A DNA stretch of 35,597 bases from Ktedonobacteraceae bacterium (GTDB taxonomy: Bacteria > Chloroflexota > Ktedonobacteria > Ktedonobacterales > Ktedonobacteraceae): contig DASRBN010000026.1 of NCBI GenBank assembly GCA_035653615.1, positions 1 to 35,597 of the forward strand. The letters run 5' to 3'. The position numbers and the translations under genes were made by a program. Shown here one piece after another: positions 9,144-31,689 of this stretch (position 1 is the first letter of the stretch; each line of letters starts with the position of its first letter). Below the pieces are notes generated by a model. The model worked only from the letters and a program-made list of their open reading frames with translations. It was not told the origin of the DNA and did not search any database.

Positions 9144-9265
9144 GTATGTGCATACTTCCTTGTGAACCAATGGCTATTCGCCAGCGCGGTTGCACCTGAC
9201 CTTTGCGGGTTTGGCGGCCCTGACGAGGATAGGCCTTTCCTGTACCCGTTTAGGGATAGAAACAA

Positions 9266-9697
9266 CTAGTGTAGCGCGTAAAACATTGTAATTGCCAGGC
9301 TGTTGGCGACCTTGCCCATGATAGCGCGCAGGTCGGCTTCGTTGAGCATACAGATCGCGTACTGGTCTGCCAGCAGGCTGCGCAGGACAGGATACATCAA
9401 TTCTGTCTTGACAAGACTGTCGGTGTCAAGCAGGGGATAGTCGCGTTTTAAGAGGAGGTGGTGATAAGGACGCAATTTTCCACGGTAGGAGGTCAGGGCT
9501 ACAACGTTGACGGCTCCGGCATGCCGGCAAAAGGGCTCGCCTGAAACGACCAGTGCGGGATGCCAATCGAGGATGCGCTTCTCTTCAATGCCAGGTGGGA
9601 GGGAAGGATAACCGAAGTTGACCCAGTACAACATGCCGAATTGCACTGGCGTCTGGTAGGTAAGTGCATCCGGTCCAAGTTCTTGTGGGTGAGGCAT
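9266..9697 (-). CDS. MazF/PemK-like protein, putative toxin
   Basis: The 143-residue protein shows the layout of the MazF/PemK endoribonuclease fold: MLYWVNFGYPSLPPG as first strand and loop, then RILDWHPALVVSG in place of the usual K-R-P-A-L-V-L-S, NVVALTSYRG in place of the V-A-P-I-T-S strand, and DTDSLVKTELMYPVLRSLL in place of the D-S-V-V-x-x-x-Q-L-R-T motif. Conserved arginine and serine/threonine positions are only partly kept, so activity is uncertain. Such enzymes cleave mRNA in toxin-antitoxin modules. The gene starts 42 bases after the small gene at 9740-9970 on the same strand. The call rests on pattern matching and is moderate. Confidence 0.5.
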   Translation of the reverse strand: MPHPQELGPDALTYQTPVQFGMLYWVNFGYPSLPPGIEEKRILDWHPALVVSGEPFCRHAGAVNVVALTSYRGKLRPYHHLLLKRDYPLLDTDSLVKTELMYPVLRSLLADQYAICMLNEADLRAIMGKVANSLAITMFYALH

Positions 9698-9739
9698 TGC
9701 TAGCTACAAATCTTCTTACAAACAAGGAGTACAATGACG

Positions 9740-9970
9740 TTACATATGGGCCACGGCCACTGGAACATGTGCCGGAGTCGAGGCATCGCTCGCTTCGAGT
9801 TGCCCATGGAAACAGGTGCAGGTAAGTGACCAGGAGCGCTCTACAAGGCCAAGGCGCTCATCACGTTCATCCTGACTTTCTTCCTGAAGAGCGGCAGCGA
9901 TGAGTTCCATTTCGCGCTGGTACTGTTCTGTAAGCAAGGAAGAACGGCTGAAGTCACAATTTGTTGCCAT
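9740..9970 (-). CDS. Small acidic protein upstream of MazF-like gene, putative antitoxin
   Basis: This is a 76-residue protein with a predicted acidic helix (TEQYQREMELIAAALQEESQ, then DERDERLGLVERSW) and a less structured C-terminal tail. I recognise no ribbon-helix-helix or AbrB-type DNA-binding motif. Position argues for an antitoxin: it is the first gene of the pair, small and acidic, and driven by a strong extended -10 promoter with an adjoining inverted repeat. AGAGG lies 7 bases before the ATG. The function is inferred from position only. Confidence 0.4.
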   Translation of the reverse strand: MATNCDFSRSSLLTEQYQREMELIAAALQEESQDERDERLGLVERSWSLTCTCFHGQLEASDASTPAHVPVAVAHM

Positions 9971-10066
9971 AAAGAAACCTCTTTGTTCCGAACGAAGTCC
10001 ACTATCGAATGAACTAGCTATCCGTTATTAATGGTGCCAGCCACAAGGCTCGAGGGTCATGTAATT

Positions 10067-10082
10067 TCTCCAACATCGGAGA
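10067..10082. promoter_or_regulatory. Inverted repeat at the start site, possible operator
   Basis: TCTCC-N6-GGAGA overlaps the last -10 base and the predicted start of the promoter for the MazF-like pair. An operator here would fit toxin-antitoxin self-regulation, but the arms are only 5 bases. Confidence 0.3.
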
Positions 10083-10110
10083 TTATACCAGCAAATTGTG
10101 CAATACGCAA
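10082..10110 (-). promoter_or_regulatory. Promoter for the MazF-like pair
   Basis: On the minus strand the -35 is TTGCGT (10110-10105), then 17 bases, then TATAAT (10087-10082) preceded by TGG, an extended -10. The start would be near 10075, about 105 bases before the ATG at 9970. Confidence 0.6.
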
Positions 10111-10185
10111 TAGTTTTTGGAATGATTTTCCAAAGCTGTTCCAAATGTGCGACTAATCTGCCTGATGATTCCCCAGAAGTTGGGC

Positions 10186-10264
10186 GGGATTCTTCGCTGC
10201 GCTCAGAATGACATGATGAAGGACCGTCCTTCATCATGTCATTCTGAGCGCAGCGAAGAATCCC
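10186..10264. repeat. Perfect 39-bp inverted repeat of the GTCATTCTGAGCGCAGCG family
   Basis: Arms 10186-10224 and 10226-10264 are exact reverse complements of 39 bases with a single central base. The outer part shares the core of the repeat at 5517-5591; the inner part (ACATGATGAAGGAC) is specific to this copy. It separates two divergent transcription units. Confidence 0.92.
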
Positions 10265-10290
10265 ACGCCCATTTCTAAGCAATCTGCATC

Positions 10291-10319
10291 TCGACGTTCA
10301 TACTCAACTCTGATATAAT
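10291..10319 (+). promoter_or_regulatory. ruvB promoter
   Basis: TCGACG (10291-10296), a 17-base spacer and TATAAT (10314-10319) with TGA just before it (extended -10). Transcription would start near 10326, about 50 bases before the ruvB ATG. Confidence 0.6.
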
Positions 10320-10377
10320 GATACCAGCGATAAATAGAACACCAGTTTCATTTGTGCAGGCAGGAGAACATAAGACC

Positions 10378-11436
10378 ATGAGCGACCGGCTCGTCTCACC
10401 GAAGATGACAGAAGAGGAGCAGGCCATCGAGGGCAGTTTGCGCCCCCGCCGCCTGTCGGAATATATCGGGCAGGAGAAAATCAAGGAGAATCTGAGCATA
10501 TTGCTGGAAGCGGCCCGGCGACGCAATGAATCGGTTGACCACGTGCTGCTGTATGGCCCGCCCGGATTGGGCAAAACCACCTTATGCAATATCATTGCCG
10601 TCGAGATGGGCGTCAGTATGAAGACCACTTCCGGCCCGGCCATCGAACATGCCGGCGACCTGGCCTCGATCCTCACCGCGCTGCAACCGGGTGAAGTTCT
10701 CTTCATTGACGAAATACACCGCCTGGCTCGTGCCGTTGAGGAACGCCTCTATTCGGCCATGGAGGATTTTGCCCTCGACGTGATGATTGGCAAAGGACCG
10801 AGCGCCAGGGCGCTGCGCCTCTCGCTGCCACCATTCACGGTTGTGGGAGCCACCACCAGGGTCGGTGCATTGACTGCCCCCCTGCGCGATCGCTTTGGGG
10901 CCATCTACCGCATGGAATACTACGACTCTGCCTCGCTAAAACAGATTTTGATCCGCTCGGCGCGCATTCTCAAGGTTCCGGCAGACGAGGGAGGCATCGA
11001 GGAAATCGCGGGCCGCGCTCGTGGCACGCCGCGTATCGTCAACCGGCTGCTCAAGCGCGTGCGTGACTATGCCCAGGTAAGGGCCGATGGCGTGATTACG
11101 CGCGATGTGGCAAAGGCGGCGCTGGACGCGCTGGAAATCGACCATATCGGGCTTGATCAGACCGACCGCAACCTCTTGCTCACCATCATGCAAAAATTTG
11201 ATGGTGGCCCGGTCGGGTTGGATACGCTGGCCGCCAGCACGAGCGAGGACCCTGAAACGATTGAAGATGTGTACGAGCCATACCTGCTGCAACTGGGCTT
11301 CATCGCGCGTACCCCGCGCGGGCGCATCGCCACGCGCTTAGCCTACGCGCACCTTGGATTGGACGCGCCGCATGGCGGAAATGGAATAGGACCGGGATTG
11401 TGGACAACAGCAACGACGCCAACACCTGGCAAATGA
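10378..11436 (+). CDS. ruvB: Holliday junction branch migration DNA helicase RuvB
   Basis: RuvB is the hexameric AAA+ motor that drives Holliday-junction branch migration with RuvA. In the 352-residue protein: Walker [10 protein letters not shown] (60-68), Walker B/DEIH (LFIDEIHR, 109-115), sensor 1 GATTR (157-161), the PLRDRFG segment with the arginine finger (~168-174), and the C-terminal winged helix ([20 protein letters not shown]). The frame opens at 10318, but that ATG overlaps the promoter -10; AGGAGA stands about 11 bases before ATG 10378, and homologues begin near here. The stop overlaps the queA ATG as ATGA, so the two are translationally coupled. ruvA and ruvC are not in the window. 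Confidence 0.96.
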
Positions 11437-12503
11437 GCGATTTCGATTACGATTTACCCCAGGAACTGATCGCACAGACACCAATTGAGCCACGCGATGC
11501 CTCGCGTTTATTGATCGTCAATCGCGCGACGGGCGGGCTTGAGCATCGCCATTTTCGTGATATCGGCGATTACCTGCATCCGGGAGATCTGCTAATTGCC
11601 AATCAGAGCCGCGTGATTCCAGCACGCCTGCTGGGACGGCGCGCGGAAACCGGCGGCGCAGTAGAAGTCCTGCTGCTGGCCGAACGGCCCGACCTCGGCC
11701 CCGATCATTGGGAAACGCTGGTACGGCCAGGACGCCGCCTGCGCGAAGGCGCACGCATCCTTTTTGGCGATGAGCAAGAGCAAGGGCCAACATTACAGGC
11801 GGAAATTCTCCAGCGCACCGAGGCAGGCGGGCGCATTGTGCGCTTCTCGGCCCCGCATTCCACGCCCGATGTCACAGACCTGGCCGTCAAAAATCTCATC
11901 GAACGTCTGGGGCGCATGCCGTTGCCGCCATATATTCACGAAACGCTGGCCGATCCTGAGCGTTACCAGACAGTCTACGCGCGCATCAGTGGCTCGGCAG
12001 CTGCGCCCACAGCCGGTCTGCATTTTACCCCGCACCTGCTGGAAGAATTGCGCCGGCAAGGAGTGCGTGTTGGCTTCGTGACGCTGCATGTGGGGTTGGA
12101 TACTTTCCGGCCTGTCGAGATCGAGAACTATCGCGAGCATAAGATGCACAGCGAGGCAATCGACCTGGATGCTCCTACAGCCGAACTGATTCGCGAGACG
12201 CGCAAAGCAGGCGGGCGCATCGTGGCCGTTGGCACAACATCTGTACGCGTTCTAGAGGGCGTGGCAAGTATCTACAACGGCGAGATACAACCCTATTCGG
12301 GTTCCACGCGCCTGTATATCACCCCAGGCTATCGCTTCCAGGTAGTTGATGCCCTGATTACCAACTTCCACCTGCCGCGGTCAACGCTGCTGCTGCTCGT
12401 CAGCGCCTTCATGGGTAAGCAATTGATGGAAAAAGCCTACCAGGAAGCGATTCGCGAACGCTATCGCTTTTTCAGCTTCGGGGACGCGATGCTGATTGTG
12501 TAA
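11433..12503 (+). CDS. queA: S-adenosylmethionine:tRNA ribosyltransferase-isomerase
   Basis: QueA transfers and rearranges the ribosyl part of SAM onto 7-aminomethyl-7-deazaguanine in tRNA, making epoxyqueuosine. The protein is 356 residues. It begins [17 protein letters not shown], the standard family N-terminus, and has [70 protein letters not shown] and [24 protein letters not shown] at 11400 would add 11 residues inside ruvB; I prefer ATG 11433, which overlaps the ruvB stop by 4 bases. ruvB-queA pairing occurs in many bacteria. The stop lies only 8 bases from the end of the converging ridA gene. Confidence 0.96.
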
Positions 12504-17351: not shown

Positions 17352-18023
17352 TCACACTTCTACCATATGGGAAAAGCGGAATTTGCGTTTTGTCTTCTCC
17401 GGCAAAGCGCAGATACGCTGTGGCAGCGTGAAATGGGGGTGCGTATCCAGCAGGTACAGCAGGGCGCGCACGATCATGGGATCAAAACTTCGCCCCGCCC
17501 CCAGGAGCAAACGCTCGCGTGCCGCTTCCTCAGAAAGCGCAGCCTTGTAAGGCCGCTGCGATGTCAGCACATCATAGACATCCGCGACGGTCAGAATACG
17601 GGCGCTTAACGGAATCTCTTCACCTTTCAGGCCGGTGGGGTAGCCGCGCCCGTCCCAGGCCTCGTGATGATAGAGTACCGTTTCGACAAAAAAGGGATGC
17701 ACATCGCAACCGATCAGAATACGCGCGCCTATAATCGGATGCCGCTCCATCTTGCGCCGTTCTTCATCGGAAAGGGCCTCTGATTTCATCAGAATATCGT
17801 TGGCGATCCAGGTCTTTCCAAGGTCATGCACCAGCGCCGCCAGTGCCAGATCGCGCGCCTCTCGCCTGCTCCATCCCAGGTAACGTGCCAGTCGTTGCGC
17901 GTATGTAGCGACGCGCCGCGAGTGTTCATACGTCACAATGTCGCGTTCCTGAATGCTTTTGGCGAACGAGAGCAGCACCTGCCGGTTCTCGGCCTCTTGA
18001 TCAAAACGTTTTATTCCCACCAC
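17352..18023 (-). CDS. HD-GYP domain phosphohydrolase
   Basis: This 223-residue cytoplasmic protein consists of little more than an HD-GYP domain, a class that includes cyclic di-GMP phosphodiesterases. Metal and signature residues are present: His34 (YEHSRRVA), HD at 66-67 (LVHDLGK), His95 (RHPIIGARIL), His119-His120 (LYHHEAWDGRGYP) with the GYP at 127-129, and Asp148 (LTVADVYDVLTSQRPYK). No sensor domain is attached, so regulation would come from a partner. The start is GTG, at 18023 or 18020; GGAG lies 5-8 bases upstream. It converges on the ABC transporter, with only 2 bases between stops. Confidence 0.92.
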   Translation of the reverse strand: MVGIKRFDQEAENRQVLLSFAKSIQERDIVTYEHSRRVATYAQRLARYLGWSRREARDLALAALVHDLGKTWIANDILMKSEALSDEERRKMERHPIIGARILIGCDVHPFFVETVLYHHEAWDGRGYPTGLKGEEIPLSARILTVADVYDVLTSQRPYKAALSEEAARERLLLGAGRSFDPMIVRALLYLLDTHPHFTLPQRICALPEKTKRKFRFSHMVEV

Positions 18024-18554: not shown

Positions 18555-19949
18555 ATGGAAGAAGATATGCTGCAAAATCCTGCTGTAACGCAGGAAAATA
18601 GCGAAGATGCATCGCGCAATGGTCATGGGCAAGGTGATATCGTTACCATTGTACTCACGGCCGGTAATCGTCTTGGACACACTGCTTTCAGTTTCACTCA
18701 AAATCCTCATAAACGCGAGGAGGGACGGCAGCGCCTGCGCCAGGCTTTCCAGCGGGTAACAGACTTTGCCGCCGGGCAGGGCGTCGACCTGTTTGTACAG
18801 GCTGGGGATCTGTTTGATTCGACCAATCCCGACGAAGAAGACCGCAGTTTTGTGGCCGAACGCCTGGCACAACTGCGCCAGGCTGGAGTTCGTGCGTTTG
18901 CGCTTGGCGGCGTGCTTGATACACCCGCCACTGCATATGCCACTGTGGATTCCGGTAGCTATGCCGCCCACGCTCTGCCACCTCAAATCAGTTATGCCCG
19001 CCTGGGCGCGCTGCAGTATTTTCCGCCGGCAGGGAGCGTACCTCCGGCAAATGGACGTGCAAGCGAGCCGGCAACGCGAGGCGCTTATCTAGAACCGGTC
19101 ATGGTGAATGTGCGCGACACACTGGTTGGTATCTGTGGCCTCGGCATTCAGGCAGATCAGGATGGGGACCCCCTGGCACATGTGCATGTAGATAGCGATA
19201 TCGAGCGTGCTGCCATCCCCCTGCTCATATTGCATGCCCCGCTTGAAGCCATGCCCACCGGCGCTTCTGGTGGAACCTCAATGGTCACCAACGCCAGCAT
19301 CGCAAGCCAGACCGTGTTCAAATATATCTTAGCTGGTTACCACCAGAGCTATCGTCAATTGCATATCGGCCAGGCTGATGTTGTCGTAGCCGGGACTACG
19401 CAGCGTGTTGACTTCAATGACCCTGACGACGAGCCTGGCTTTGTCTTCCTCGGAATAGCCGCCGGTGGCATTCGCTGGTGCCAGCATATTCCTGTAGATA
19501 CCCTCAAGCTGCGTCGCCTGCGCATCAACCTGGCTGAACTCTGGGCGCAGGATTCAAATAGCGAGGATAGCTCCGTTACAGAGCGCATTCTCCAGCTTCT
19601 CGAGCCGCTATGCAGCCCGGAGACGCTGGTGCAAATCCAGCTTACAGGTGAGGTGACGCGCAGCCAGTATCATCAACTGGATTTAAATCGGGTGCGGCAT
19701 TTTGGCGAAGAACGTTGTTTTGCCCTGGAAGTCGACGAAAGCGGCCTGCTGTTTGCGAGCGACGAATCGCGACTTGCGACCGGTGTAGCCGGTTCTAACG
19801 CATTTGAAGAACGCATATCTGTTCGTGAGGAACTTATTATCCTTGCCGGCGAATGGATTGCCGCTGTCCAGGATGAGCAGGAGCGGCAAGCCTTGCAGAT
19901 GACAAGGGAAGAATTGCTGGCAGCCTTCTCCTCTGGAGTAAACCTATGA
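18555..19949 (+). CDS. Degenerate Mre11/SbcD-like metallophosphoesterase, probably nuclease-deficient
   Basis: The 464-residue protein follows the Mre11/SbcD/YhaO plan: an N-terminal phosphoesterase region (about 30-320), then a capping and C-terminal partner-binding part. Only some metal ligands survive. Motif I (usual T-A-D-x-H-L-G-H) reads TAGNRLGH (35-42), losing Asp and His. Motif II GDLFD is intact (Asp85). Motif III (GNHD) reads GGVLD (118-122), losing Asn and His. Motif IV His227 (LLILHAP) is kept. Motif V (G-H-x-H) reads AGYHQSYRQ (260-268). GTTQRVDFNDPDDEPGFVFL resembles the strand after motif V in true Mre11, which anchors the alignment. It is probably a non-catalytic adaptor. GAGGGG precedes the ATG. 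The stop overlaps the next gene as ATGA, so the pair is coupled. Confidence 0.75.
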   Translation: MEEDMLQNPAVTQENSEDASRNGHGQGDIVTIVLTAGNRLGHTAFSFTQNPHKREEGRQRLRQAFQRVTDFAAGQGVDLFVQAGDLFDSTNPDEEDRSFVAERLAQLRQAGVRAFALGGVLDTPATAYATVDSGSYAAHALPPQISYARLGALQYFPPAGSVPPANGRASEPATRGAYLEPVMVNVRDTLVGICGLGIQADQDGDPLAHVHVDSDIERAAIPLLILHAPLEAMPTGASGGTSMVTNASIASQTVFKYILAGYHQSYRQLHIGQADVVVAGTTQRVDFNDPDDEPGFVFLGIAAGGIRWCQHIPVDTLKLRRLRINLAELWAQDSNSEDSSVTERILQLLEPLCSPETLVQIQLTGEVTRSQYHQLDLNRVRHFGEERCFALEVDESGLLFASDESRLATGVAGSNAFEERISVREELIILAGEWIAAVQDEQERQALQMTREELLAAFSSGVNL

Positions 19950-22900
19950 TCATCCTTAAGCATTTGACAACTGAACAATTCAGACTCTTGCGCGAGATCG
20001 ACCTGTACTTCCCACAGCGCGGAAGTATCCTCATCCAGGGACCGAACGAGGCAGGCAAATCAACGATCTTTGAAGCTATCTACTTCGCGCTTTATGGCGA
20101 ACCCCTGACTTCCCCGTCTCAACGCGGGAAACGCCGGGACTCGGATCGCGGCCTGGACGATTTAATCCACTATGGCGAGCCTTCCGCTATTGTGTCTCTT
20201 GATCTCTCGATAGGCGTTACATCATTATCGATCAGGCGCACTATTGAGCGCGGTAAGGGGCAGCAGGTCAGCTTGCGAGTGCAGCGATTGGGCATGCCGG
20301 AAGAGTCACCGGTTACGAACCTGAAGGCCGCCAATGAGCGTATCATTGCCGAATTGGGGCGCATCGATGGCGAGACGCTGCGCAATTCCTGCCTGATTGA
20401 GCAAAAAGGACTGTCACGACTGGAGCAAATGGATGGTCGCGAGCGCGAAACAGTGTTGCGCAAACTGCTTGGCCTGGAAAAGCTTACCCGCCTGTCCGAA
20501 CAATTCAAATTAACTGAACAGGATGAGGAACTTCTCAACGAGAGTCGCATGCGTCTAACATTGGCCGAAGTGCAGGCGCGTATCCCTGAGCTAAGTATGC
20601 AATTGGGAGACATTGAGGCCGCGCTCGACGCCGTCTCCATCACCGAACACCTGGCCGAGATAGACCGGCAAGAGGTAGAAATCGATGAACAGCAGCGGGC
20701 GCTCGAACAGATCGAGGTGCAGCGTCGCGAACTGCGCGCGCGCCAGAGTCGCATTCAACAGTTGAAGAAAGCCGATGCTGTACTTGGCGAAATCATGGCA
20801 TCATATGATGCCATCGCCGAGGCCCAGCGTTCTCTGCCCGAAATTGAACGCCAGCTTGCCGAACTCGAACTCCGCAGGAGCGAAGAACTGCCCGCGCTCG
20901 AACAACGGGTTCGCGATTTATCCGAACTTTCTCGCTCCTTCGGAACGCTGGAGCGTATGGCGGGCGACCTGCTGGCGGTCGTCAACACCATCAAAGAGTT
21001 GGAGCAGGAACTCAAAGACTATGAACAGGTGCAGGCAGATATTCAGGAACTGGACGAGAAAATTATTCACGCCCGCCTGCGCGTCGAAGAAGCTCAACAG
21101 GCCCGGCATGAGATGGAAGAGCAGCGGCGCTCGGCAAAACCGCAGTTAGAACAGCGACTCCAGCGCCTGCGCCGGTTAGCGCAACAACTTCATGCTCTGC
21201 GGCAGGCAGAGGAAGAATACCGGCAGATACAGGCCCGGCAGGGATCGCCTCAGGAACAGATAGAGCAACTCAAGAAGGTTGAGCGAGAACTGCAAGAAAG
21301 CGAACAGGAACTCGCGCTTGTGCAGAATGAAGCGCAACAACTACAACAGCAGGCCGATGACATCGAGAAGCGCTGGCGCAAGCTCAGTTTGCATCGCCAG
21401 CTGGAAGAGTGGCAGCGCTTAAAAGGCTTGATGAAAGGCCTGACTGAAGCCGAGCAACATGTCATGGCTGCTCACCAGCAGCAGGAGCGATTGACACTGG
21501 AGGCCCTCGCTCAGCGCCGCGCCGCCACTATCCAGCTTGGTATTACTATCGCCTGTGTTGTTCTGTTCCTGCTCTGTGGTAGTGCAGCGCTTGTCGAGGC
21601 CCTGAATAAGTCAATCATTTTCGCTACCATCGCCGGTTTAGCCGCTATTTTGTTAGCTGCCAGCGCCGGCTACAGCTATCAGACGTACAGCAAGATACGT
21701 AAAAAGGAGCAGGAGGCCGACCGGCAAATGCAGGAGGCCATCAACCAGGTAAGCATGATGGTGGCTGCGCGCGAAACTGCCATTCGCATGAGCGGGGGCC
21801 AGGGGGGCAATCAGGAGGCGCTTGAGCAGATAGAACACGAGATTCGCTCGCTTGGTGGCGCTGTACCACGCTCCCTGGAAGAGGCACAGCACCTGCTGCA
21901 ACAGGTTTCTACCTCTGACGAGAGCCTTGCCGATATCCAGCAGCAAATGAACGAGAGCCGTAACAAGGCACTGGCGGCTCGCAACCAGGTCAATGTGACC
22001 ATGGAAGCGGTAGCCGCGGCTCGTAAGGAACGTGCGCGCCTGCAAGCGCTCGGCAACCGGGAAAGCCAGGAAGTCATTCATGAAAAGCTACAGGCTAAGC
22101 AGGCGGCCATCGGGCAAATACAAAACGAGATTGTAGTTGCCGCCGGTAAAGAGGGTCTACCATTGCCTGTAGGAGAAACGTTCAACGCGCCCATGGAAGA
22201 CGGGCAAGAGCAGGTCAAACCCTATGAGAGCGTGGTTGAAGATGCCATCAAATCAACCGAACGCGAAATAGCCGTACTGGATGGTAAGCTGTCATCTCTG
22301 CCGGATCTTGCTACCCAGGTCAAAATCTATCAAGATGCCCTGGATGTCTTGCTCGCGCGAAAACAGGCACACCTGGAGCGTTTGGAGCGCTACCAGGACA
22401 ATCTCCCTATGCAACGAATAGAACGCGCCCGCGAACAACAGCTTACACTGCGCGATGCGCTTCGCAGTTTGCAGGATTCCTTGCGTAAGCGTGTCCAGCC
22501 GCTTGGCTTCGCCTTTGGTCAGGCGGCAATCAACAGTGCTGAATCCGGCGCTCGTAAGCAACTGGAATTACTACATATCACGCTCGATAGCAAGATAGAG
22601 CTTGAGAATCGCCATGCTTTCTATACCGCTCTCCTCAAGGAACGCCAGGAAGCCCTATCCGCCGGTTATCGGCAACTGGCAAAATTCAGCACCACCCTTG
22701 GCAGCTGGATCGTTCCTCCGAATCCATTTGCCGAAGCCCTCGTGGCTCTACGCAGCCGCTGCCAGCGCGAGATAGAGCAAGAGGGTGAGGAAAATATCTT
22801 GCGCGAACTCGAAGGCTTAAGGCTCCAGGAGGGCGCCTCGCGAGTGAAAATCGAGCTATGCCGCGGAGAGATTGAAATCGCCCAGGAACGCATTGCCACA

Positions 22901-23815
22901 ATACTGGCACAACGCAACCGGCCACCCGCGAAAGGCTTCACCCTTGTTGATATCGCGGCAGTCTGGCCCCTCGTTGGCGAATACTCGCCGGAGCAGCGCG
23001 CCCGCCTTGAAGAGGATCTGGCGCGCGTCGACCAGGAATTGCACCAGCTAGAACAACAGGAGTTGGAATTGAGCACGCAACTCCATACGGGCGGTGAAAA
23101 GTTAGATCTCGAGCTGGCTCGCAAGCATTTGGAGCAGCAAGAACGCAGTTACCAGACCAAAAAACGCGGCGGTCTGCTGATCGATGCCACATGCGAGCGC
23201 ATCATGCGCAAGATGATACCGCGCATAGAATACTTTATGCAGCAGCTACTCCCCCTGCTGACACGCGGTCGCTACCATGATGTGCGCCTGGCAACAGAAC
23301 CGGAAGAGGGGATTGCCAGTGGAGGGCCATTCCAACTGAGTATATGGGAGCCTTCTGCCGGAGAATATATCGCGAAATCGGCTCTTTCGGGCGGCGCCGC
23401 CGATCAAATCTCGCTGGCGCTGCGATTAGCGTTTGCCATTGCTGCCTTGCCACGCGAACTCAGCGCCGCGCCAGGATTTCTGCTCCTCGACGAGCCATTT
23501 GGCTCTTTTAGCCGTGACCGCATGCAAGCCCTGGCGCAGCTTGTTACAGGCGATGCACTCGGCCAGCACTTTGAGCAGGTGCTGTTTATCTCGCACGACA
23601 GCGCTTTCGAATCTACACTGTTTCCCTATCACGTCTCTATTGAGGATGGCGCCATTGTCGATAGCAATCTCTCCATGAGAGCAGGAGATGCTCAGCATGC
23701 CTCATCCCAGGGAAGCAATCAATCTGGTCCCTACCCTCGCCGGTTCACCCGGCCATTAGAGGCTGATACCTCTAGCAATGGGACAACACCATTAACGGCT
23801 TCACAATACTCATAG
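19946..23815 (+). CDS. SbcC/Rad50-like SMC ATPase with central membrane hairpin
   Basis: The 1289-residue protein has a split ABC ATPase head joined by long coiled coils. Walker A GPNEAGKST is at 32-40. Near the C-terminus come signature SALSGGAADQISLALRLAFA, Walker B GFLLLDEPFGSF and H-loop VLFISHD, all intact. Residues ~190-525 and ~580-1090 are glutamate/glutamine-rich coiled coil. Between them, about residues 530-577, are two hydrophobic helices (LGITIACVVLFLLCGSAALV and IIFATIAGLAAILLAASAGY). Rad50 carries its CxxC zinc hook at the coil apex; no CxxC is seen here. The layout recalls Bacillus YhaN, partner of YhaO. The coils should project from a membrane-held apex. The last ~60 residues are low-complexity. 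It overlaps the Mre11-like gene by ATGA. DNA as substrate is inferred. Confidence 0.85.
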   Translation: MIILKHLTTEQFRLLREIDLYFPQRGSILIQGPNEAGKSTIFEAIYFALYGEPLTSPSQRGKRRDSDRGLDDLIHYGEPSAIVSLDLSIGVTSLSIRRTIERGKGQQVSLRVQRLGMPEESPVTNLKAANERIIAELGRIDGETLRNSCLIEQKGLSRLEQMDGRERETVLRKLLGLEKLTRLSEQFKLTEQDEELLNESRMRLTLAEVQARIPELSMQLGDIEAALDAVSITEHLAEIDRQEVEIDEQQRALEQIEVQRRELRARQSRIQQLKKADAVLGEIMASYDAIAEAQRSLPEIERQLAELELRRSEELPALEQRVRDLSELSRSFGTLERMAGDLLAVVNTIKELEQELKDYEQVQADIQELDEKIIHARLRVEEAQQARHEMEEQRRSAKPQLEQRLQRLRRLAQQLHALRQAEEEYRQIQARQGSPQEQIEQLKKVERELQESEQELALVQNEAQQLQQQADDIEKRWRKLSLHRQLEEWQRLKGLMKGLTEAEQHVMAAHQQQERLTLEALAQRRAATIQLGITIACVVLFLLCGSAALVEALNKSIIFATIAGLAAILLAASAGYSYQTYSKIRKKEQEADRQMQEAINQVSMMVAARETAIRMSGGQGGNQEALEQIEHEIRSLGGAVPRSLEEAQHLLQQVSTSDESLADIQQQMNESRNKALAARNQVNVTMEAVAAARKERARLQALGNRESQEVIHEKLQAKQAAIGQIQNEIVVAAGKEGLPLPVGETFNAPMEDGQEQVKPYESVVEDAIKSTEREIAVLDGKLSSLPDLATQVKIYQDALDVLLARKQAHLERLERYQDNLPMQRIERAREQQLTLRDALRSLQDSLRKRVQPLGFAFGQAAINSAESGARKQLELLHITLDSKIELENRHAFYTALLKERQEALSAGYRQLAKFSTTLGSWIVPPNPFAEALVALRSRCQREIEQEGEENILRELEGLRLQEGASRVKIELCRGEIEIAQERIATILAQRNRPPAKGFTLVDIAAVWPLVGEYSPEQRARLEEDLARVDQELHQLEQQELELSTQLHTGGEKLDLELARKHLEQQERSYQTKKRGGLLIDATCERIMRKMIPRIEYFMQQLLPLLTRGRYHDVRLATEPEEGIASGGPFQLSIWEPSAGEYIAKSALSGGAADQISLALRLAFAIAALPRELSAAPGFLLLDEPFGSFSRDRMQALAQLVTGDALGQHFEQVLFISHDSAFESTLFPYHVSIEDGAIVDSNLSMRAGDAQHASSQGSNQSGPYPRRFTRPLEADTSSNGTTPLTASQYS

Positions 23816-24388: not shown

Positions 24389-24429
24389 GAAATGGAATGA
24401 TTTTGGCATAGATGAGAGTAACATTTCTT

Positions 24430-25083
24430 ATGACAGACAAACTTGATCAGGCAGCATCCGCTGCGCAACAATACCTGGCGCTCAAACATGCGGCGCGCGA
24501 ACGGGCTTTACCCAAATCGCGTACAGCCATCCGTTACTGCGCCAATAGCATCCGCGCGACGCACCGCCAGGAATTTCAAGCTGCGGCGGAACTTCTGCGC
24601 CACGCCAATATTCTGCTGGCCGAAATGAGCGCTGATTTGCAGGAACAGCAGGATATCTATTTCGCGGGATTTTTGCAGGACGCGCAGAAGGAATATGCCG
24701 AAGCCGCAACATTTCTGGCCCTGGCGCAACATCGACCCGTTCCGCTTGCCTCTGAACTCTCCATCGACTGGATTCCCTATCTCAATGGGCTGGGTGAGAC
24801 CGTTGGAGAACTTCGCCGCTACCTGCTCGATCAATTGCGCCGCGGCAACATCGAGACATGCGAAACCCTGCTGGGTTACATGGATGATATCTATGCCCTC
24901 CTCATCACCATCGACTACCCCGATGCCATTACCGGTGGCCTGCGCCGCACTACCGATGCTGCTCGCGGTATCCTCGAAAAGACGCGCGGCGACCTCACCA
25001 TCGCCGTCGGGCAAGATCAATTACAGCAAACCCTGCTCACATTGCAGCGCGAACTAGAGAAATTGCGCCTCGATTCCCTGTAG
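24430..25083 (+). CDS. Translin family protein
   Basis: Translin and its partner Trax are helical proteins that bind single-stranded nucleic acid; Trax-type subunits are Mg-dependent ribonucleases. From ATG 24430 (217 residues) the family pattern is clear: KSRTAIRYCANSIRATHRQE (29-48), the EYAEA motif with Glu88 and Glu91 spaced like the catalytic glutamates of Trax, YLNGLGETVGELRRYLLDQL (117-136), and DYPDAITGGLRRTTDAARGI then LEKTRGDLT (162-190). It is therefore more likely a catalytic, Trax/archaeal-type subunit than a pure binder. An ATG at 24412 would add 6 residues; neither start has a strong ribosome site. It stands alone between the SMC-like pair and dnaN. Confidence 0.88.
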   Translation: MTDKLDQAASAAQQYLALKHAARERALPKSRTAIRYCANSIRATHRQEFQAAAELLRHANILLAEMSADLQEQQDIYFAGFLQDAQKEYAEAATFLALAQHRPVPLASELSIDWIPYLNGLGETVGELRRYLLDQLRRGNIETCETLLGYMDDIYALLITIDYPDAITGGLRRTTDAARGILEKTRGDLTIAVGQDQLQQTLLTLQRELEKLRLDSL

Positions 25084-25207
25084 GGACAGCGCCTTGTGCC
25101 TGTGTTCGTGCCCGTCCTCCTCAATGTCTTGTGCTGCTCTACCCTGCTCCGGCTGCGGTTCAATTGCAGGTGCCACAATGAGATTGCATAGGTTCTGATG
25201 AAATTGG

Positions 25208-25236
25208 TTTACAGCCGTCTCGGAATACTGTATACT
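25208..25236 (+). promoter_or_regulatory. dnaN promoter
   Basis: TTTACA (25208-25213), 17-base spacer, TATACT (25231-25236). The start would be near 25243, leaving a leader of about 49 bases. Confidence 0.7.
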
Positions 25237-25291
25237 AACCAGGAATTTGACCCTGCATTTCTTTGGTTGTGTTCTGGAGGAAGAGTATCAT

Positions 25292-26431
25292 ATGAAACTA
25301 ACCTGTAAACAACAAGACTTGAGCCGCGGGCTTTCTGCCGTCAGCCACGCCGTGTCGAATCGCAGCACGCTCCCTATTCTTTCCAATATCTTGCTCGCGA
25401 CCGATAATGGCCGCCTCAAACTTTCCGCTACCAATCTGGAGATTGGCATTAATTGCTGGGTTGACGCGCAGATCGCCGAAGATGGGGCTACCACCGTACC
25501 CGCCAGGCTGCTCACCGATCTCGTCAACAGCCTGCCGCAGGCCACCGTCGATATCAGCGCCAATGAAGATTCCAATATCCTTAGCGTCAAAAGCGCGGGC
25601 AGTAGCGCCAACATTAAAGGCCTGGACCCATCCGAATTTCCCTTGATCCCCAGCGCCGAGGGCGGAGAGCCGCCCGTGCGCTTCGAAGCCTCGCGCTTGA
25701 AAGAGATGATCGATGAGGTCGCGTTCGCCGCCGCCGATGATGACTCCCGTCCCGTTTTTACCGGCGTCCTCATTCAGGTCAGTGAAGAGAAAATTACCTT
25801 TGCCGCTGCCGACGCTTTTCGCCTGGCCGTGCGCGTCGATGCGCTTCCCGGTGATGACCATCCACGCGGCGACATCCTCGTTCCGGCGCGTACCCTCACC
25901 GAACTCGCCCGCATCCTGCCATCCGAAGGGCAGGTCGAGATGATCGTGACACCCAATCGCAGCCAGGTGCTCTTCCATACGCCGCAACTGGACCTGGTCT
26001 CGCGTCTCATCGATGGCACCTTTCCCAACTTCCGGCAGATTATTCCGAAGGAACACAGCACGCGCGCGGTCGTCGAAACGAAGCAATTTGCCGAAGCCGC
26101 TAAACGTGCCGCCCTGTTCGCCCGTGATAGCTCCAATATCACACGCATCAAAATCAACCCTGGCGCGAACGATGGGCTGGAGCCGGGATCGGTTACCGTC
26201 GAGGCGACTGCCGAAGACCTGGGAGACAACGTCACCACCATTAACGCCGCCGTCGATGGACCCGAACTACAGATTATCTTTAACGTCAAATACCTGGCCG
26301 ACGTACTTGCCGTTATCGATACGCCCGAAGTAGCGCTCGAAGCCAACGCGCCTACCAAACCGGGCGTTATCAAACCTGTAGGCTCCAACGATTATACCTA
26401 TGTGATTATGCCCATGCATATCAATCGATGA
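25292..26431 (+). CDS. dnaN: DNA polymerase III beta sliding clamp
   Basis: DnaN is the dimeric ring that tethers polymerase III to DNA. The 379-residue protein has the three repeated clamp folds: MKLTCKQQDLSRGLSAVSHA with RSTLPILSNILL in the first, RPVFTGVLIQ and AADAFRLAVRV in the second, VSRLIDGTFPNFRQIIPK and the C-terminal YTYVIMPMHI in the third. That MPM-(R/H)-(I/L) end is part of the partner-binding pocket. The frame opens at 25247, but GGAGGAAG sits 8 bases before ATG 25292 and homologues begin with M-K/R-L. recF follows after a repeat-containing gap. dnaA, which often precedes dnaN, is not here; translin takes its place, and I saw no DnaA-box cluster. Confidence 0.97.
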   Translation: MKLTCKQQDLSRGLSAVSHAVSNRSTLPILSNILLATDNGRLKLSATNLEIGINCWVDAQIAEDGATTVPARLLTDLVNSLPQATVDISANEDSNILSVKSAGSSANIKGLDPSEFPLIPSAEGGEPPVRFEASRLKEMIDEVAFAAADDDSRPVFTGVLIQVSEEKITFAAADAFRLAVRVDALPGDDHPRGDILVPARTLTELARILPSEGQVEMIVTPNRSQVLFHTPQLDLVSRLIDGTFPNFRQIIPKEHSTRAVVETKQFAEAAKRAALFARDSSNITRIKINPGANDGLEPGSVTVEATAEDLGDNVTTINAAVDGPELQIIFNVKYLADVLAVIDTPEVALEANAPTKPGVIKPVGSNDYTYVIMPMHINR

Positions 26432-26442
26432 GTACTTTGCCC

Positions 26443-26490
26443 GTAGGGGCCGGTTCACCGTACACATCGCCGATTGATCGGCCCCCACGC
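26443..26490 (+). repeat. GTAGGGGCC-type palindromic repeat between dnaN and recF
   Basis: GTAGGGGCCGGTTCACCG is followed by an imperfect inverted arm CCGATTGATCGGCCCCCACG. It begins 11 bases after the dnaN stop. Confidence 0.7.
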
Positions 26491-26536
26491 GCACAACAAA
26501 CATCTTCCAAAAGCCATTGCCAGTCTGGACACATGC

Positions 26537-27697
26537 ATGTATCTTGCTCACCTCGCACTACACGACTTTCGCAATTATAAACAACTCGACCTTCCACTTG
26601 GGCCTGGTCTGTATCTCTTTTGTGGCGAGAACGCGCAGGGCAAAACGAACCTGCTCGAAGCCGTGGCTATGCTCGCCACCTCCAATTCATTCCACGCCGC
26701 CTCCGACCGCGAAATCGTCAACTGGCAGGCGCCCGATCACATTGCGCGTCTCGTGGCCAGCGTCGAACGGCACAGCGGTGAAGTAAAGATCGAGATCGTC
26801 ATCGTCGATCCTACGCCTGCCAATGGCGCCGATTTCAGCGTTCCCGAAAGCAGGCAGCGCAAGCGCGTCAAAATCAATAATGTGCCAAAGAAGCCTATGG
26901 ACCTGGTAGGGCAGGTGACCGTCGTGCTCTTCGCTCCTACCGATTTGCGACTCGTCGATGGCCCTCCCGAAGAGCGGCGCCGCTTTCTGGACCGCGCGTT
27001 ATGCCAGATGCAACCCCGTTACTGCGCAGTGCTTGGCAAGTATCGCAAGGTGATTACACAGCGTTCCGCCCTTCTCAAGCGCATCCGCGAAAATCAGGAA
27101 GATCCACGCATGCTCGGCTACCTGGATGAGAAACTGACCGAGTGGGCCAATCTGATCATCTTTGAGCGCCAGCGCATGGTGGCCTCGCTCAATGCTCAGG
27201 TGGATGAACTGCAAGCGACGATCAGCGGCGGGCGCGAACACCTGCAAATCGTCTATCGTCCCTCGTTCACCGTCAATCCCGAATGGAACACCATCGAGGC
27301 GCTTGAGCATTACCGCGAGCAACTGCACGAGGCGCGGCGCAAGGAGATTTACCAGGGCGTGTGCCTGTTGGGCCCGCACCGCGATGACCTGGAATTTCTG
27401 GTCAACGGCGTCAACATGCTCACTTACGGCTCGCGCGGGCAGCAGCGCACCGTGGCGCTCTCGGCCAAGCTGGCGGAACTGGCCTACATGCATGGCGTCA
27501 CCGGCGAAGAGCCAATCCTGCTGCTGGATGATGTATTCAGCGAACTCGATTCACTGCGCCGCGAATACCTGCTGCGCCAGATACTACAGCACGAGCAGGT
27601 CTTGATTACGGCCACCGATTTCACCAATTTCCCGCAGGAGATTCTGGGTAAAGCCCACAGATATCAGGTGGTGGATGGGGCGATAACAGAGGCGTAA
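26537..27697 (+). CDS. recF: DNA replication and repair protein RecF
   Basis: RecF is an SMC-like ATPase without a long coil that loads RecA at single-strand gaps with RecO and RecR. The 386-residue protein starts MYLAHLALHDFRNYKQLDLP, has Walker A GENAQGKT (30-37), APTDLRLVDGPPEERRRFLD, LLGPHRDDLEF, signature YGSRGQQRTVALSAKLAEL, Walker B ILLLDDVFSELD and VLITATDF near the end. The frame opens at 26474, but that extension overlaps the upstream repeat; ATG 26537 gives the usual N-terminus, although its ribosome site is weak. dnaN-recF adjacency is the common bacterial arrangement. Confidence 0.96.
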   Translation: MYLAHLALHDFRNYKQLDLPLGPGLYLFCGENAQGKTNLLEAVAMLATSNSFHAASDREIVNWQAPDHIARLVASVERHSGEVKIEIVIVDPTPANGADFSVPESRQRKRVKINNVPKKPMDLVGQVTVVLFAPTDLRLVDGPPEERRRFLDRALCQMQPRYCAVLGKYRKVITQRSALLKRIRENQEDPRMLGYLDEKLTEWANLIIFERQRMVASLNAQVDELQATISGGREHLQIVYRPSFTVNPEWNTIEALEHYREQLHEARRKEIYQGVCLLGPHRDDLEFLVNGVNMLTYGSRGQQRTVALSAKLAELAYMHGVTGEEPILLLDDVFSELDSLRREYLLRQILQHEQVLITATDFTNFPQEILGKAHRYQVVDGAITEA

Positions 27698-27987: not shown

Positions 27988-30900
27988 TTAACTAACCGTC
28001 AAGCTGACCGTCACCGTGACCGCATTGCCAGAAGAGGGCGTAATATCGACCGTGGCCGAGTAGGTGCCCGCGGACAAACCCGTTACATCCACCGAGAAGG
28101 TGAGCGAGGAACTTTGACCAGCATCGTCGCTGCCACTGGTGGGTGAAACGGTCAGCCAGCTTTGAGAAGGTGTATCGGTCGTCCATGTGAGCGAGTTGCC
28201 GCCGGTGTTGGTAATCGTAATGGCCTGCGTATCGGGGTTGACGCCCACATTGGCGGTGAAAGCCAGGCTGTCTGAACTGAGCTGCATGGCGGGTGGCGCG
28301 ATGTTGATGGTGATGGGAACGGTGACCGGGCTGCCCGCTACAGCATTACCCGTAATCGGATCAATGGCGCTTATGGTGGCGCTGGTGGTGTAGGTTGTGC
28401 CGCCCTGCAAGCCGCTGGCATCGACAATCACGTCGATGTTGGTGCCGCTTCCTCCCGCCAGGCCCGTGCCGGATGTTGCCGAGAGCGAGACGAAGGATGG
28501 CGCGTTGGGGTCCAACGCCGCCGTCCAGTTCAACGGTTCGCCGCCGGCGTTGTTGATGGCAATCTGCTGGTCGCTTGATCCTGTATCAACGTTGAACGTC
28601 AGCGCGCCCGGACCTGCGTTCAGCACGGGCGCCGCTATCACATTCGTGGTTATTCCGACCTGCTGCGGGCTGCCCTCAATCGTCATACCGTTACTATCCA
28701 CCGCTGCCAGCGAAACGGTGCCGTTGTATGTTCCGGCAGAGAGCGAGCCAGATGTTACCGCGACCGTAAATGTAGCGCTATTGCCGCTCGTTACCTGCGC
28801 CGACGATGGCGTGACCGCGAGCCAGCTTCCTCCATCGCCCGTCGTGACCGTTGGCGTAATCGTTACGCTACCACTGCACGTGCCGCTGACGGCAATGCTG
28901 AATGTCTGCGTGGCGGGGTTCAATCCTACCTCGGCGGAATAGGTCTCGCCGCTATCCGATGGCGCTTGCAACATACATGGCGGCTGCACTGTGAGCGTAA
29001 TGGCAATCGTTTGCGCTGTACCCGCCTGCTGCCCGCTGACACTGTCAACTGCCGTGATCGTAACCGTGCCCGCATAGCTGCCGGCGGATAGACCGGCAAG
29101 CGAGACGCCGACGTTGGTGGACGAGGAGGCCGAGAGGCTGACCGTGCCGCTGGCGGGTGAGGCCGACAGCCATGTGCCACCGGAAGAGGTATTGACGCTG
29201 GCTGTCCAATTCAGCGCGTGCGCGCATGTCCCACTGGCGGCGATGTTCACAGCCTGCGTGGCGGGGTTTGCCTGACCAACAATGCCCGTGAAGTTGAGCG
29301 CGAGCGGAGTCGCTCCAATAGCGCACGGCGGTTGCACGACAAAGGTAACCGGAATCGACTGCGGGCTGCCCATTGCCGGATTGCCCGATCCATCCGTCGC
29401 GTTAAAGGTGATTGTTCCAGTGTAGGTGCCGGGGGAGAGCGATTGTAACAGTATAGCTGTAACGGTAATGCTGGCCGACTGACCGCTGGAAAGGCTGCCC
29501 GAGGTGGTTGAAATTGAAAGCCATGGTGCTCCTGTAGATGTTGTCGCCGAGGCATTCCATGCCAGCGTGCCTCCACCAGAGTTGGTGATCGTAGCGACCT
29601 GGGCAGGTGGGTTTACCTGGCCGTAGATGGCGCTAAAATTCATCGTCGCGGGCCCTACGCTGAGAACCGGTGTCGCGACCGGTGCCACGATCAGTGTCAC
29701 GGGTATAGTCTGATTGCCTGATTTTGTGCTGAAGATGAGCGCGCCCGTATATGTGGCAGGCGAGAGGCCAGAGCTATTGACGCTCACCTGAGGATAGGCC
29801 GGAGTTCTGCCGCTAGCCTGGTTGATGCTGAGCCAGTGCCCACCATTATTGGTTGTGACTGAGGCGTTCCACTGCATCGGGCTTGAACATCCCTGGCTAA
29901 GGCCCACATCGATGGTCTTGGGCCCCGGTGAGGGCTGCGAAGATACAGCGGTAAACGTCAGACTGCCCGGTGAGACCTGGACCGCGCATTGCGGTAGAAT
30001 GGTCAGGCTGACAAAGATCGATTGTGGGCTATCCTTTACCGGGTCCGGTCCTGTGCTGGAGAACGTGACGCGACCGCTATACGTACCCGGCAGCATCATG
30101 CTGGTATTCACGCCGATCTTTACCGCCAGGCTGCCACCTTTGCCTATGGTGCTGGATCGTGTCCCTACTACCAGCCAGTTTGACCCATCGTCGGTGGAAC
30201 TCGAGGCACTCCACTGCAAAGGTAGCAGGCCGGGATTGCTGATGGTGACGACCTGGGCCACCGGATTGGCGCCGCCATCTATGCCGGTGAAGGAAAGTAC
30301 GCCGGGCATGAGCTGGAGTACAGCTTCATGTTGGGGTTCGAGCGGCGTCACATTCATCTTGACAGGCAGCATTAATTGTCCGGCGTTCGATGAAAAGATC
30401 ACGTTGCCCTTATATACTCCCTGCTTCAGATTTGCGCGGTCTCCCGCAATGGTTACCTTCATCGGTTGGCCGGCCACAAAGGTGCCGCTATTCGGGCTAA
30501 GCAGCAGCCAGGGCTGCGTCGTGCCGCTTTGCCAGGAAATCGTTCCGCCGCCGGCATTATTCAGCGTAATCGCCATGGCGCTGTCGGTCGCCTGGTCGCC
30601 GGAACCGAGATTGAGGCTGCTCACCGAGATTTCCAGGTGCGGTGGCTTTGAGGCGCTTTTGCCGGTCACATTAATCGCAAAGCTGGCCGTTTTATGGGTG
30701 GCAGCATCTTCTGCCTGTATGGTATGCGAACCGGACAACCATGTTGGATCGACCGTGACCGTGTCGCTGAAATTACCTGAGCTATTGGTGGTTATAATAT
30801 GCGAGCCTGCGGTATCGATGACCGGAATATGCGTATCGCGAGTCAGGCCTACGCGCCCATTGGGGCTGAACCTGGTGCCGCGCAGCGTAATGGTTCCCCC

Positions 30901-31689
30901 AAGCGCAATGGTAGAAGGAGTGACCTGCAACGAGAACGCGCCTTGTCCAGACGACGATTGTGCCGTGGGCGAGCGCCCCAGGACACTGACGATGCCAAAA
31001 ATTCCGCCCAGCAAGAGGGCTATAATCGCAAGCGTGCTTAGCCAGAAGAATAGCTTCGGCTGGGGCCGCCTGGGTGGTGGCTGTTGCTGAACAGGTTGTA
31101 CGCGTTGCGTTGGCAGTACAGGTGGTGGAGTGCCGGGTGTGACAAGTGGCTCAAGTTGCGGTGGTGTGAGAACTGTGCTACGGTTCTTATTGCGGACAAC
31201 TTTATTCCAGGTCGAGAAAGGCCGCATCTCAGGTTGGTCATGAATGATACCATCCTCGCTGTCCATGAGGCGAGTTGAGAATGATATATCGTCGCCCGCG
31301 GCCAGGCGCTGCCACTGGCTGGGTGAGATGACCACAACTTCTTCGCCGGCGCGATTTCCTATTCGCTGCGTCTCTACATCCTCGTTGCCGGCATTGCCCG
31401 GCATAGCCTGAGTAGGGGCCTCTTCTTCCGCGGGCATAGGCTGCGTTGGAAGTTCCTCGTTCTCGCGTAGTGGGTAGAGACGATGTGATTTGAAGATGGC
31501 CGTTCGTCCAGAATCCGGAGCCTCTGGCGCATTAGGAGGGTTAGCCTGTTTTCCACCTGTAGGGACAGCGCCAGGCGCCTGTCCATCCATACCGGCTAGA
31601 GGCGCCACCAGGGGCAGTCCACATGCCGGGCAGTATTTTGCGATCCGGGGAAGCGGCTCAGCGCAATTTGGGCAGCTTATCATATTCAT
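27988..31689 (-). CDS. Membrane protein: zinc ribbon, single TM helix, Ig-like domain and about eight BACON-like repeats
   Basis: A 1233-residue protein. Residues 6-23 form a zinc ribbon (C6-PN-C9 and C20-PA-C23). A polar, proline-rich cytoplasmic region follows with four T-Q-x-(M/I/V) motifs at Thr82, 93, 107 and 194. One transmembrane helix spans 213-237. Outside, residues ~248-340 resemble an IPT/Ig-like domain (TPSTIALGGTITLRGTRFSP). Then come about eight BACON-like units of 90-110 residues, each with a 'NFSAIYGQVNPPAQVATITN' strand pair, 'W-L-S/T-I-S-P-x-S-G' and 'L-S-P-G-T-Y-T-G-x-I-x-F'. Such repeats usually bind glycans or build stalks. There is no signal peptide: the internal TM helix would insert it, N-terminus inside. 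Function unknown. GAGGG lies 7 bases before the ATG. The small membrane gene follows. Confidence 0.85.
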   Translation of the reverse strand: MNMISCPNCAEPLPRIAKYCPACGLPLVAPLAGMDGQAPGAVPTGGKQANPPNAPEAPDSGRTAIFKSHRLYPLRENEELPTQPMPAEEEAPTQAMPGNAGNEDVETQRIGNRAGEEVVVISPSQWQRLAAGDDISFSTRLMDSEDGIIHDQPEMRPFSTWNKVVRNKNRSTVLTPPQLEPLVTPGTPPPVLPTQRVQPVQQQPPPRRPQPKLFFWLSTLAIIALLLGGIFGIVSVLGRSPTAQSSSGQGAFSLQVTPSTIALGGTITLRGTRFSPNGRVGLTRDTHIPVIDTAGSHIITTNSSGNFSDTVTVDPTWLSGSHTIQAEDAATHKTASFAINVTGKSASKPPHLEISVSSLNLGSGDQATDSAMAITLNNAGGGTISWQSGTTQPWLLLSPNSGTFVAGQPMKVTIAGDRANLKQGVYKGNVIFSSNAGQLMLPVKMNVTPLEPQHEAVLQLMPGVLSFTGIDGGANPVAQVVTISNPGLLPLQWSASSSTDDGSNWLVVGTRSSTIGKGGSLAVKIGVNTSMMLPGTYSGRVTFSSTGPDPVKDSPQSIFVSLTILPQCAVQVSPGSLTFTAVSSQPSPGPKTIDVGLSQGCSSPMQWNASVTTNNGGHWLSINQASGRTPAYPQVSVNSSGLSPATYTGALIFSTKSGNQTIPVTLIVAPVATPVLSVGPATMNFSAIYGQVNPPAQVATITNSGGGTLAWNASATTSTGAPWLSISTTSGSLSSGQSASITVTAILLQSLSPGTYTGTITFNATDGSGNPAMGSPQSIPVTFVVQPPCAIGATPLALNFTGIVGQANPATQAVNIAASGTCAHALNWTASVNTSSGGTWLSASPASGTVSLSASSSTNVGVSLAGLSAGSYAGTVTITAVDSVSGQQAGTAQTIAITLTVQPPCMLQAPSDSGETYSAEVGLNPATQTFSIAVSGTCSGSVTITPTVTTGDGGSWLAVTPSSAQVTSGNSATFTVAVTSGSLSAGTYNGTVSLAAVDSNGMTIEGSPQQVGITTNVIAAPVLNAGPGALTFNVDTGSSDQQIAINNAGGEPLNWTAALDPNAPSFVSLSATSGTGLAGGSGTNIDVIVDASGLQGGTTYTTSATISAIDPITGNAVAGSPVTVPITINIAPPAMQLSSDSLAFTANVGVNPDTQAITITNTGGNSLTWTTDTPSQSWLTVSPTSGSDDAGQSSSLTFSVDVTGLSAGTYSATVDITPSSGNAVTVTVSLTVS
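31559..31584 (+). repeat. GTAGGGACAGCGCC repeat inside a coding region
   Basis: GTAGGGACAGCGCC followed by GGCGCCTGTCC is nearly palindromic. The first 14 bases also occur at 25080-25093, just at the translin stop codon. Here it lies in frame within the linker after the zinc ribbon of the large membrane protein. Confidence 0.6.

Follow-up and report, generated by a model that had tools for sequence, protein, structure and literature searches.

In complexes of the Mre11-Rad50 (SbcCD) type, two Rad50 coils are joined by a zinc hook, a CxxC motif at the coil apex. Whether Mre11-Rad50 is mainly a nuclease or mainly a tether is debated, and the nuclease-dead Mre11-Rad50 mutants that we know of are laboratory constructs. 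A related layout is that of YhaN/SbcE, whose B. subtilis representative was reportedly described in 2010 with a central transmembrane domain, and is said, in the abstract of the same study, to form foci on the nucleoid. Furthermore, a title in the reference list of PMC4205851 reports B. subtilis SbcE (YhaN) in DSB repair and competence.

The window, which is the whole stretch of 35,597 nucleotides that was analysed, contains a gene pair with this layout (Table 1), and the stop of the first gene overlaps the start of the second by 4 bases (ATGA). The second gene encodes an ATPase which, according to Pfam, matches AAA_27 with 26.8 bits (gathering threshold 22) and AAA_23 with 37.8 bits (gathering threshold 27), and its head matches Rad50/SbcC profiles and Rad50 structures in PDB. 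Besides Rad50 heads, Foldseek returned mostly long-coil SMC matches of low TM-score for the ATPase model, and the head matches alone were used; matches to DndD, MADS and JetC were set aside as generic similarity of head or coil. The alignment shows an intact Q-loop in addition to the intact motifs of Table 1. The D-loop has Ser1189 in place of an Asp which is present in the other 32 of the 33 aligned sequences. By what holds for ABC and Rad50 proteins, we take this position to be important for ATP hydrolysis between the heads; the window ATPase may thus be weakened too, which would fit a decaying and a repurposed system alike.

Table 1. Features of the gene pair, with their positions in the window.
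Feature	Position	Strand	Basis
Mre11/SbcD-fold partner, 464 aa, catalytically degenerate	18555-19949	+	AlphaFold2, Foldseek, HMMs
Motif I DxH, reads G-N-R; D8 to G37, H10 to R39; codons GGT, CGT	18663-18671	+	Alignment
Motif II Asp (D49), retained	18807-18809	+	Alignment
Motif III GNHD, reads GVLD; N84 to V120, H85 to L121	18912-18917	+	Alignment
Motif IV His (H173), retained	19233-19235	+	Alignment
Motif V GHxH, reads GYHQ; H206 to Y262, H208 to Q264	19338-19346	+	Alignment
C-terminal helix-turn-helix, aa 423-463, presumed Rad50-binding element; portion kept in the 76-aa relict	19821-19943	+	AlphaFold2 helices 423-437 and 441-463; relict identity
Rad50/SbcC/YhaN-like ABC ATPase with membrane hairpin, 1289 aa	19946-23815	+	Pfam, Rad50 HMMs, PDB Rad50 matches
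Walker A region GPNEAGKST, intact	20027-20077	+	Alignment
First predicted membrane helix, aa 528-550	21527-21595	+	dG -1.95 kcal/mol; Kyte-Doolittle 2.51
Turn EALNKS	21596-21613	+	Sequence; AlphaFold2 break at 554-556
Second predicted membrane helix, aa 557-578	21614-21679	+	dG -0.69 kcal/mol; Kyte-Doolittle 2.24
ABC signature LSGGA, aa 1147-1151, intact	23384-23398	+	Alignment
Walker B LLLDEP, intact; D-loop Asp to Ser1189 (AGC at 23510-23512)	23480-23512	+	Alignment

An earlier note on this DNA had described a two-helix hydrophobic hairpin interrupting the coil at 21530-21690, and this position was right within about 10 bases. The two segments are the top hydropathy peaks of the ATPase (Kyte-Doolittle, residues 532-550 and 557-575), the third peak being 1.42, and both have a negative insertion score of the dG type, calculated with constants of the Hessa/von Heijne predictor. 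The zinc hook of SbcC and Rad50 is absent, as had also been noted: the whole ATPase contains no CxxC, and its six cysteines are scattered. The AlphaFold2 model, based on a 31-row alignment and with a pLDDT of about 80 in this region, shows a helix from residue 435 to 553, a turn of three residues and a helix from 557 to 615. When the residues of the ATPase were shuffled, a segment with dG below 0 appeared in 13 of 60 shuffles, and the maximal Kyte-Doolittle value was up to 3.2 in 5000. Since composition alone readily yields one such segment, the window sequence by itself is weak evidence and conservation carries the argument. Two segments with dG of 0.5 or lower were found at the equivalent place in all 28 orthologues found in the Ktedonobacteria family of the source genome (from here on, the host family), and the letters of the hairpin are poorly conserved among them. 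The earlier placement of the hairpin at the coil apex stands mainly through short-coil relatives, L094 (581 aa) and L095 (618 aa), in which it lies near the middle, the arms of L094 being nearly equal (about 100 and 87 aa). In the window ATPase, however, one arm has about 345 aa and the other about 524 aa, and the model of the descending arm is broken in several places, so that this arm probably has extra folded inserts.

Pairs with a hairpin ATPase were found in 28 of 29 host-family genomes. Related pairs are distributed across the class Ktedonobacteria (Thermosporothrix, Thermogemmatispora and Tengunoibacter), elsewhere in Chloroflexota and in one Rubrobacter MAG, and YhaO/YhaN-type pairs in a Bacillaceae species, Lachnospiraceae and one Mollicutes MAG. 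The hairpin is present in most of these relatives, including the YhaN-type proteins from Bacillaceae, Lachnospiraceae, Mollicutes and Rubrobacter; the Bacillaceae ATPase (L134, Sediminibacillus massiliensis; L-numbers are loci of relatives or of the same genome) shows one strong and one weaker hydrophobic segment, and the Lachnospiraceae and Mollicutes relatives show a hairpin. Its presence in YhaN-type relatives of other phyla marks it as a trait of the known YhaN/SbcE family, hence as nothing new, and these relatives, together with the host-family orthologues, rule out a hairpin exclusive to the window. The window pair has the characters of that family: a Rad50/SbcC-type ATPase with an AAA_27-type N-terminus, a central hairpin without zinc hook and an adjacent Mre11/SbcD-type gene. 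The comparison, in which L134 stood in for the B. subtilis YhaN sequence, supports YhaN as the nearest layout, as the earlier note had it. A few Chloroflexota members (L100, L101 and L103) have a single segment or none. In L100, L101, L111 and L112, all from Chloroflexota, the hairpin is not detectable and the partner motifs are intact, and therefore the anchor can be lost too.

The product of the first gene had been proposed as the partner of the ATPase, with which it would form a complex, and both the gene overlap and the Mre11 fold support this. Its AlphaFold2 model (pLDDT 85) has the Mre11/SbcD fold, and the top 50 Foldseek matches in PDB are all Mre11 or SbcD, with E values of 1.6e-16 to 1e-12; matches to TIGR00619 and Mre11 HMMs are weak. 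Eight active-site positions, in what we take as P. furiosus Mre11 numbering, were mapped on an alignment of host-family partners and relatives, and D49 and H173 alone are left of the eight residues in the phosphoesterase motifs DxH, GDxxD, GNHD, H and GHxH. All 26 host-family copies read have substitutions at N84 (V/L/T) and H206 (Y/F), both of which, by known Mre11 structures, are presumably second-metal ligands; outside the host family N84 is kept except for T in two sequences, and H206 except for D in three. In the window copy alone, H10 has become R, H85 has become L and H208 has become Q, and D8 is G in the window and E in L012, these two being the exceptions to a DxH found in every host-family copy with the N-terminus read. 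Host-family copies other than the window copy retain D8 (E in one), H10, D49, H85, H173 and H208, so a one-metal or altered enzyme is possible outside the window genome. Sequencing error was ruled out as the source of the lost motifs: the ORF is intact and its catalytic codons are altered by separate substitutions, two of the residues are missing family-wide, and the deletion described below occurs in two genomes with the same junction. The window partner is therefore predicted to lack nuclease activity, and with six of its eight active-site residues gone, the DNA-processing role suggested in the earlier note is unlikely for this pair. In the partners of L044, L045 and L102, GHxH reads GDxH, a possible change of metal chemistry. 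The open-licence literature searched contained no natural nuclease-dead or truncated Mre11/SbcD.

In the sister genus g6, the loss extends to the domain itself. Both available g6 genomes have the ATPase and the hairpin, and upstream of it a relict of the Mre11 partner of 76 aa (L015:5241-5471 and L029:3299-3529, both on the minus strand), which consists of a short N-terminal stretch and the last 50 or so partner residues; the whole phosphoesterase domain is deleted. The relict ORF overlaps the ATPase start and adjoins the same HD-domain gene as in the window, and over 55-57 matched residues it shares 70-71% identity with the C-terminal part of the L028 orthologue. No second close homologue was found in the two g6 genomes. 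Between them, the relict has a dN/dS of 0.20 and the ATPase one of 0.21; the synonymous excess in the relict is significant (p = 0.004), and it is under purifying selection. The residues kept presumably correspond to the C-terminal helix-turn-helix that binds the base of the Rad50 coil in Mre11-Rad50 structures, and by this analogy the C-terminal helices of the window partner would bind Rad50. As far as the sequences go, then, catalytic residues have been lost stepwise, in g6 the nuclease domain as well, and the C-terminal helices are selected.

Taken together, the conserved ATPase and anchor, the stepwise loss and final deletion of the nuclease and the selection on the presumed Rad50-binding element argue for a clamp or tether. 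In the same sense, the partner branch of the window pair is long relative to its ATPase branch, with a ratio of 1.45 against 0.42-1.14 in other host-family members. We consider it rather probable that the pair is an Mre11-Rad50-like complex of the YhaN/SbcE type, turned into a DNA clamp that is anchored in the membrane and no longer works as a nuclease. Because the nuclease centre of the partner is lost, and the g6 partner is reduced to the presumed ATPase-binding piece, the complex probably serves to retain DNA at the membrane, not to cut it. The ABC heads of two ATPase subunits would clasp DNA between them, depending on ATP, and the coils would extend from there to the cytoplasmic membrane and transmit the grip; at the membrane the hairpin, replacing the zinc hook, would anchor the apex. 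The Mre11 partner would no longer be nucleolytic, its retained portion presumably bracing the coils at the heads. Such a tether would probably serve to keep DNA that is broken, branched or incoming at the membrane, undegraded, for RecA-dependent steps. A more far-reaching version is plausible, and we put it forward tentatively: that a complex of the Mre11-Rad50 type has turned into a tether of purely mechanical function, anchored in the membrane, with the ligands of site 2 lost family-wide, those of site 1 lost in the window, and the g6 partner left as a 76-aa Rad50 brace.

The chief rival is decay, in which the window copy, damaged in nuclease and ATPase D-loop, is being lost while a second pair in the same genome takes over. 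That pair, on contig C37 (L034:6993-8342 and 8339-12070), resembles the window pair in hairpin, gene order and 4-base overlap (35% identity in the partner, 29% in the ATPase), but all eight active-site residues of its partner are intact and it is presumably active. Decay would also account for the D-loop substitution being unique to the window, and for the window partner having the longest branch of the host-family clade in the larger tree (0.61). However, both window ORFs are intact and overlapping, and the ATPase branch is not long (0.35). Of the columns that are near-invariant in 18 other host-family members, the window partner has substitutions in 4 of the 6 catalytic ones and in 14 of the 145 others (Fisher p = 0.0019), so that 131 non-catalytic positions are kept. 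Decay in a single strain explains the window alone and gives no account of the family-wide loss of N84 and H206 or of the selected relict, and we consider it unlikely. Apart from both pairs, the same genome also encodes a Rad50-like ATPase (L063:4533-7709) that has no membrane segments, and it contains an Mre11-like gene (L064:4719-6122); with these and the second pair present, the dead-nuclease complex is an addition to Mre11-Rad50 and not its sole form. The L063 protein also has no CxxC hook.

It is less likely still that the hydrophobic helices are not inserted in the membrane but form an apolar tip through which the coil dimerises, with protein-protein contacts taking the place of the zinc hook. 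The nucleoid foci which B. subtilis SbcE is said to form, with no obvious membrane binding, would agree with such a tip, as would the missing hairpin of L100 and L101. A bilayer is better suited by segments of 19-23 residues with negative dG, and by their charges: across 25 proteins, the 15-residue flanks average 2.7 and 2.8 K/R and the turn 0.08, which would be the positive-inside pattern of an N-in/C-in hairpin. We therefore favour a hairpin that inserts in the membrane and tethers the coil there.

That the pair is an ordinary YhaN/SbcE nuclease complex, in which the hairpin keeps a functional Mre11-type nuclease at the membrane, as the earlier note implies, is very unlikely. The hairpin is a family trait, the pair agrees with YhaO/YhaN in fold and gene order, and all catalytic residues are kept in other lineages and in the L034 pair; nevertheless, the residues lost from the window copy include ligands of both metal sites, and in g6 the domain is wholly deleted. 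Membrane-inserting segments can serve as effectors in defence, and the PADLOC model of Lamassu LmuB matches the ATPase (1.1e-25), but an anti-phage system with an SMC-like ATPase related to LmuB and the hairpin as effector is most improbable, since the match covers head and coil only, the pair is near-universal in the host family with partners forming one clade, no defence genes or Lamassu partner were recognised beside it, and a neighbouring HD-GYP gene is kept in 8 of the 9 other host-family neighbourhoods examined.

The neighbours checked were ABC transporter parts, HD-GYP, Translin-like, DnaN and RecF-like genes. The HD-GYP-type gene, for a c-di-GMP phosphodiesterase (HHEAWDGRGYP; 17352-18023, minus strand), is divergent from the pair. 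A Translin-like ORF, DnaN (beta clamp) and a RecF-like ATPase lie directly downstream (24412-27697, plus strand), a neighbourhood not common to the relatives examined. Elsewhere in the window, the minus strand encodes a 1233-aa protein with seven BACON_2 repeats, a HYDIN-like Ig domain and an N-terminal zinc ribbon (27988-31689), and SelA, selenocysteine synthase (7755-9170). No tRNA genes were found in the window.

If the mechanical tether is real, selection can maintain a Rad50-type machine in a role that needs no nuclease, and selection here appears to have separated the nuclease from the ATPase, the hairpin and the C-terminal helices of the partner. The pair would then be a natural system in which to test what a Rad50-type ATPase does when it does not cut, and what purpose the poorly understood YhaN/SbcE membrane anchor serves.

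Compared with known systems, the window pair shares with SbcCD and Mre11-Rad50 a Rad50-type head, a long coil, an Mre11-fold partner and the arrangement as a gene pair, but it has a membrane hairpin instead of the zinc hook and no intact nuclease centre. Lamassu LmuB, the best PADLOC match, is likewise an SMC-like ATPase with a coil; however, Lamassu has LmuA/LmuC partners and an island-like distribution, whereas the window gene has no recognised Lamassu partner among the neighbours checked and is found in nearly every host-family genome, not as an island gene. YhaN/SbcE with YhaO (B. subtilis SbcEF; Krishnamurthy et al. 2010, NAR 38:455) is the closest, with an SbcC-like ATPase, a central membrane hairpin and no zinc hook beside an Mre11/SbcD-type gene. 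The L134 pair is built in the same way as the window pair, although its YhaO-type partner has all the catalytic residues, six of eight being gone in the window copy, and its ATPase has 988 aa versus 1289 aa. The hairpin is thus already known in the YhaN/SbcE family, and what is less ordinary in this locus is a partner without a nuclease centre.
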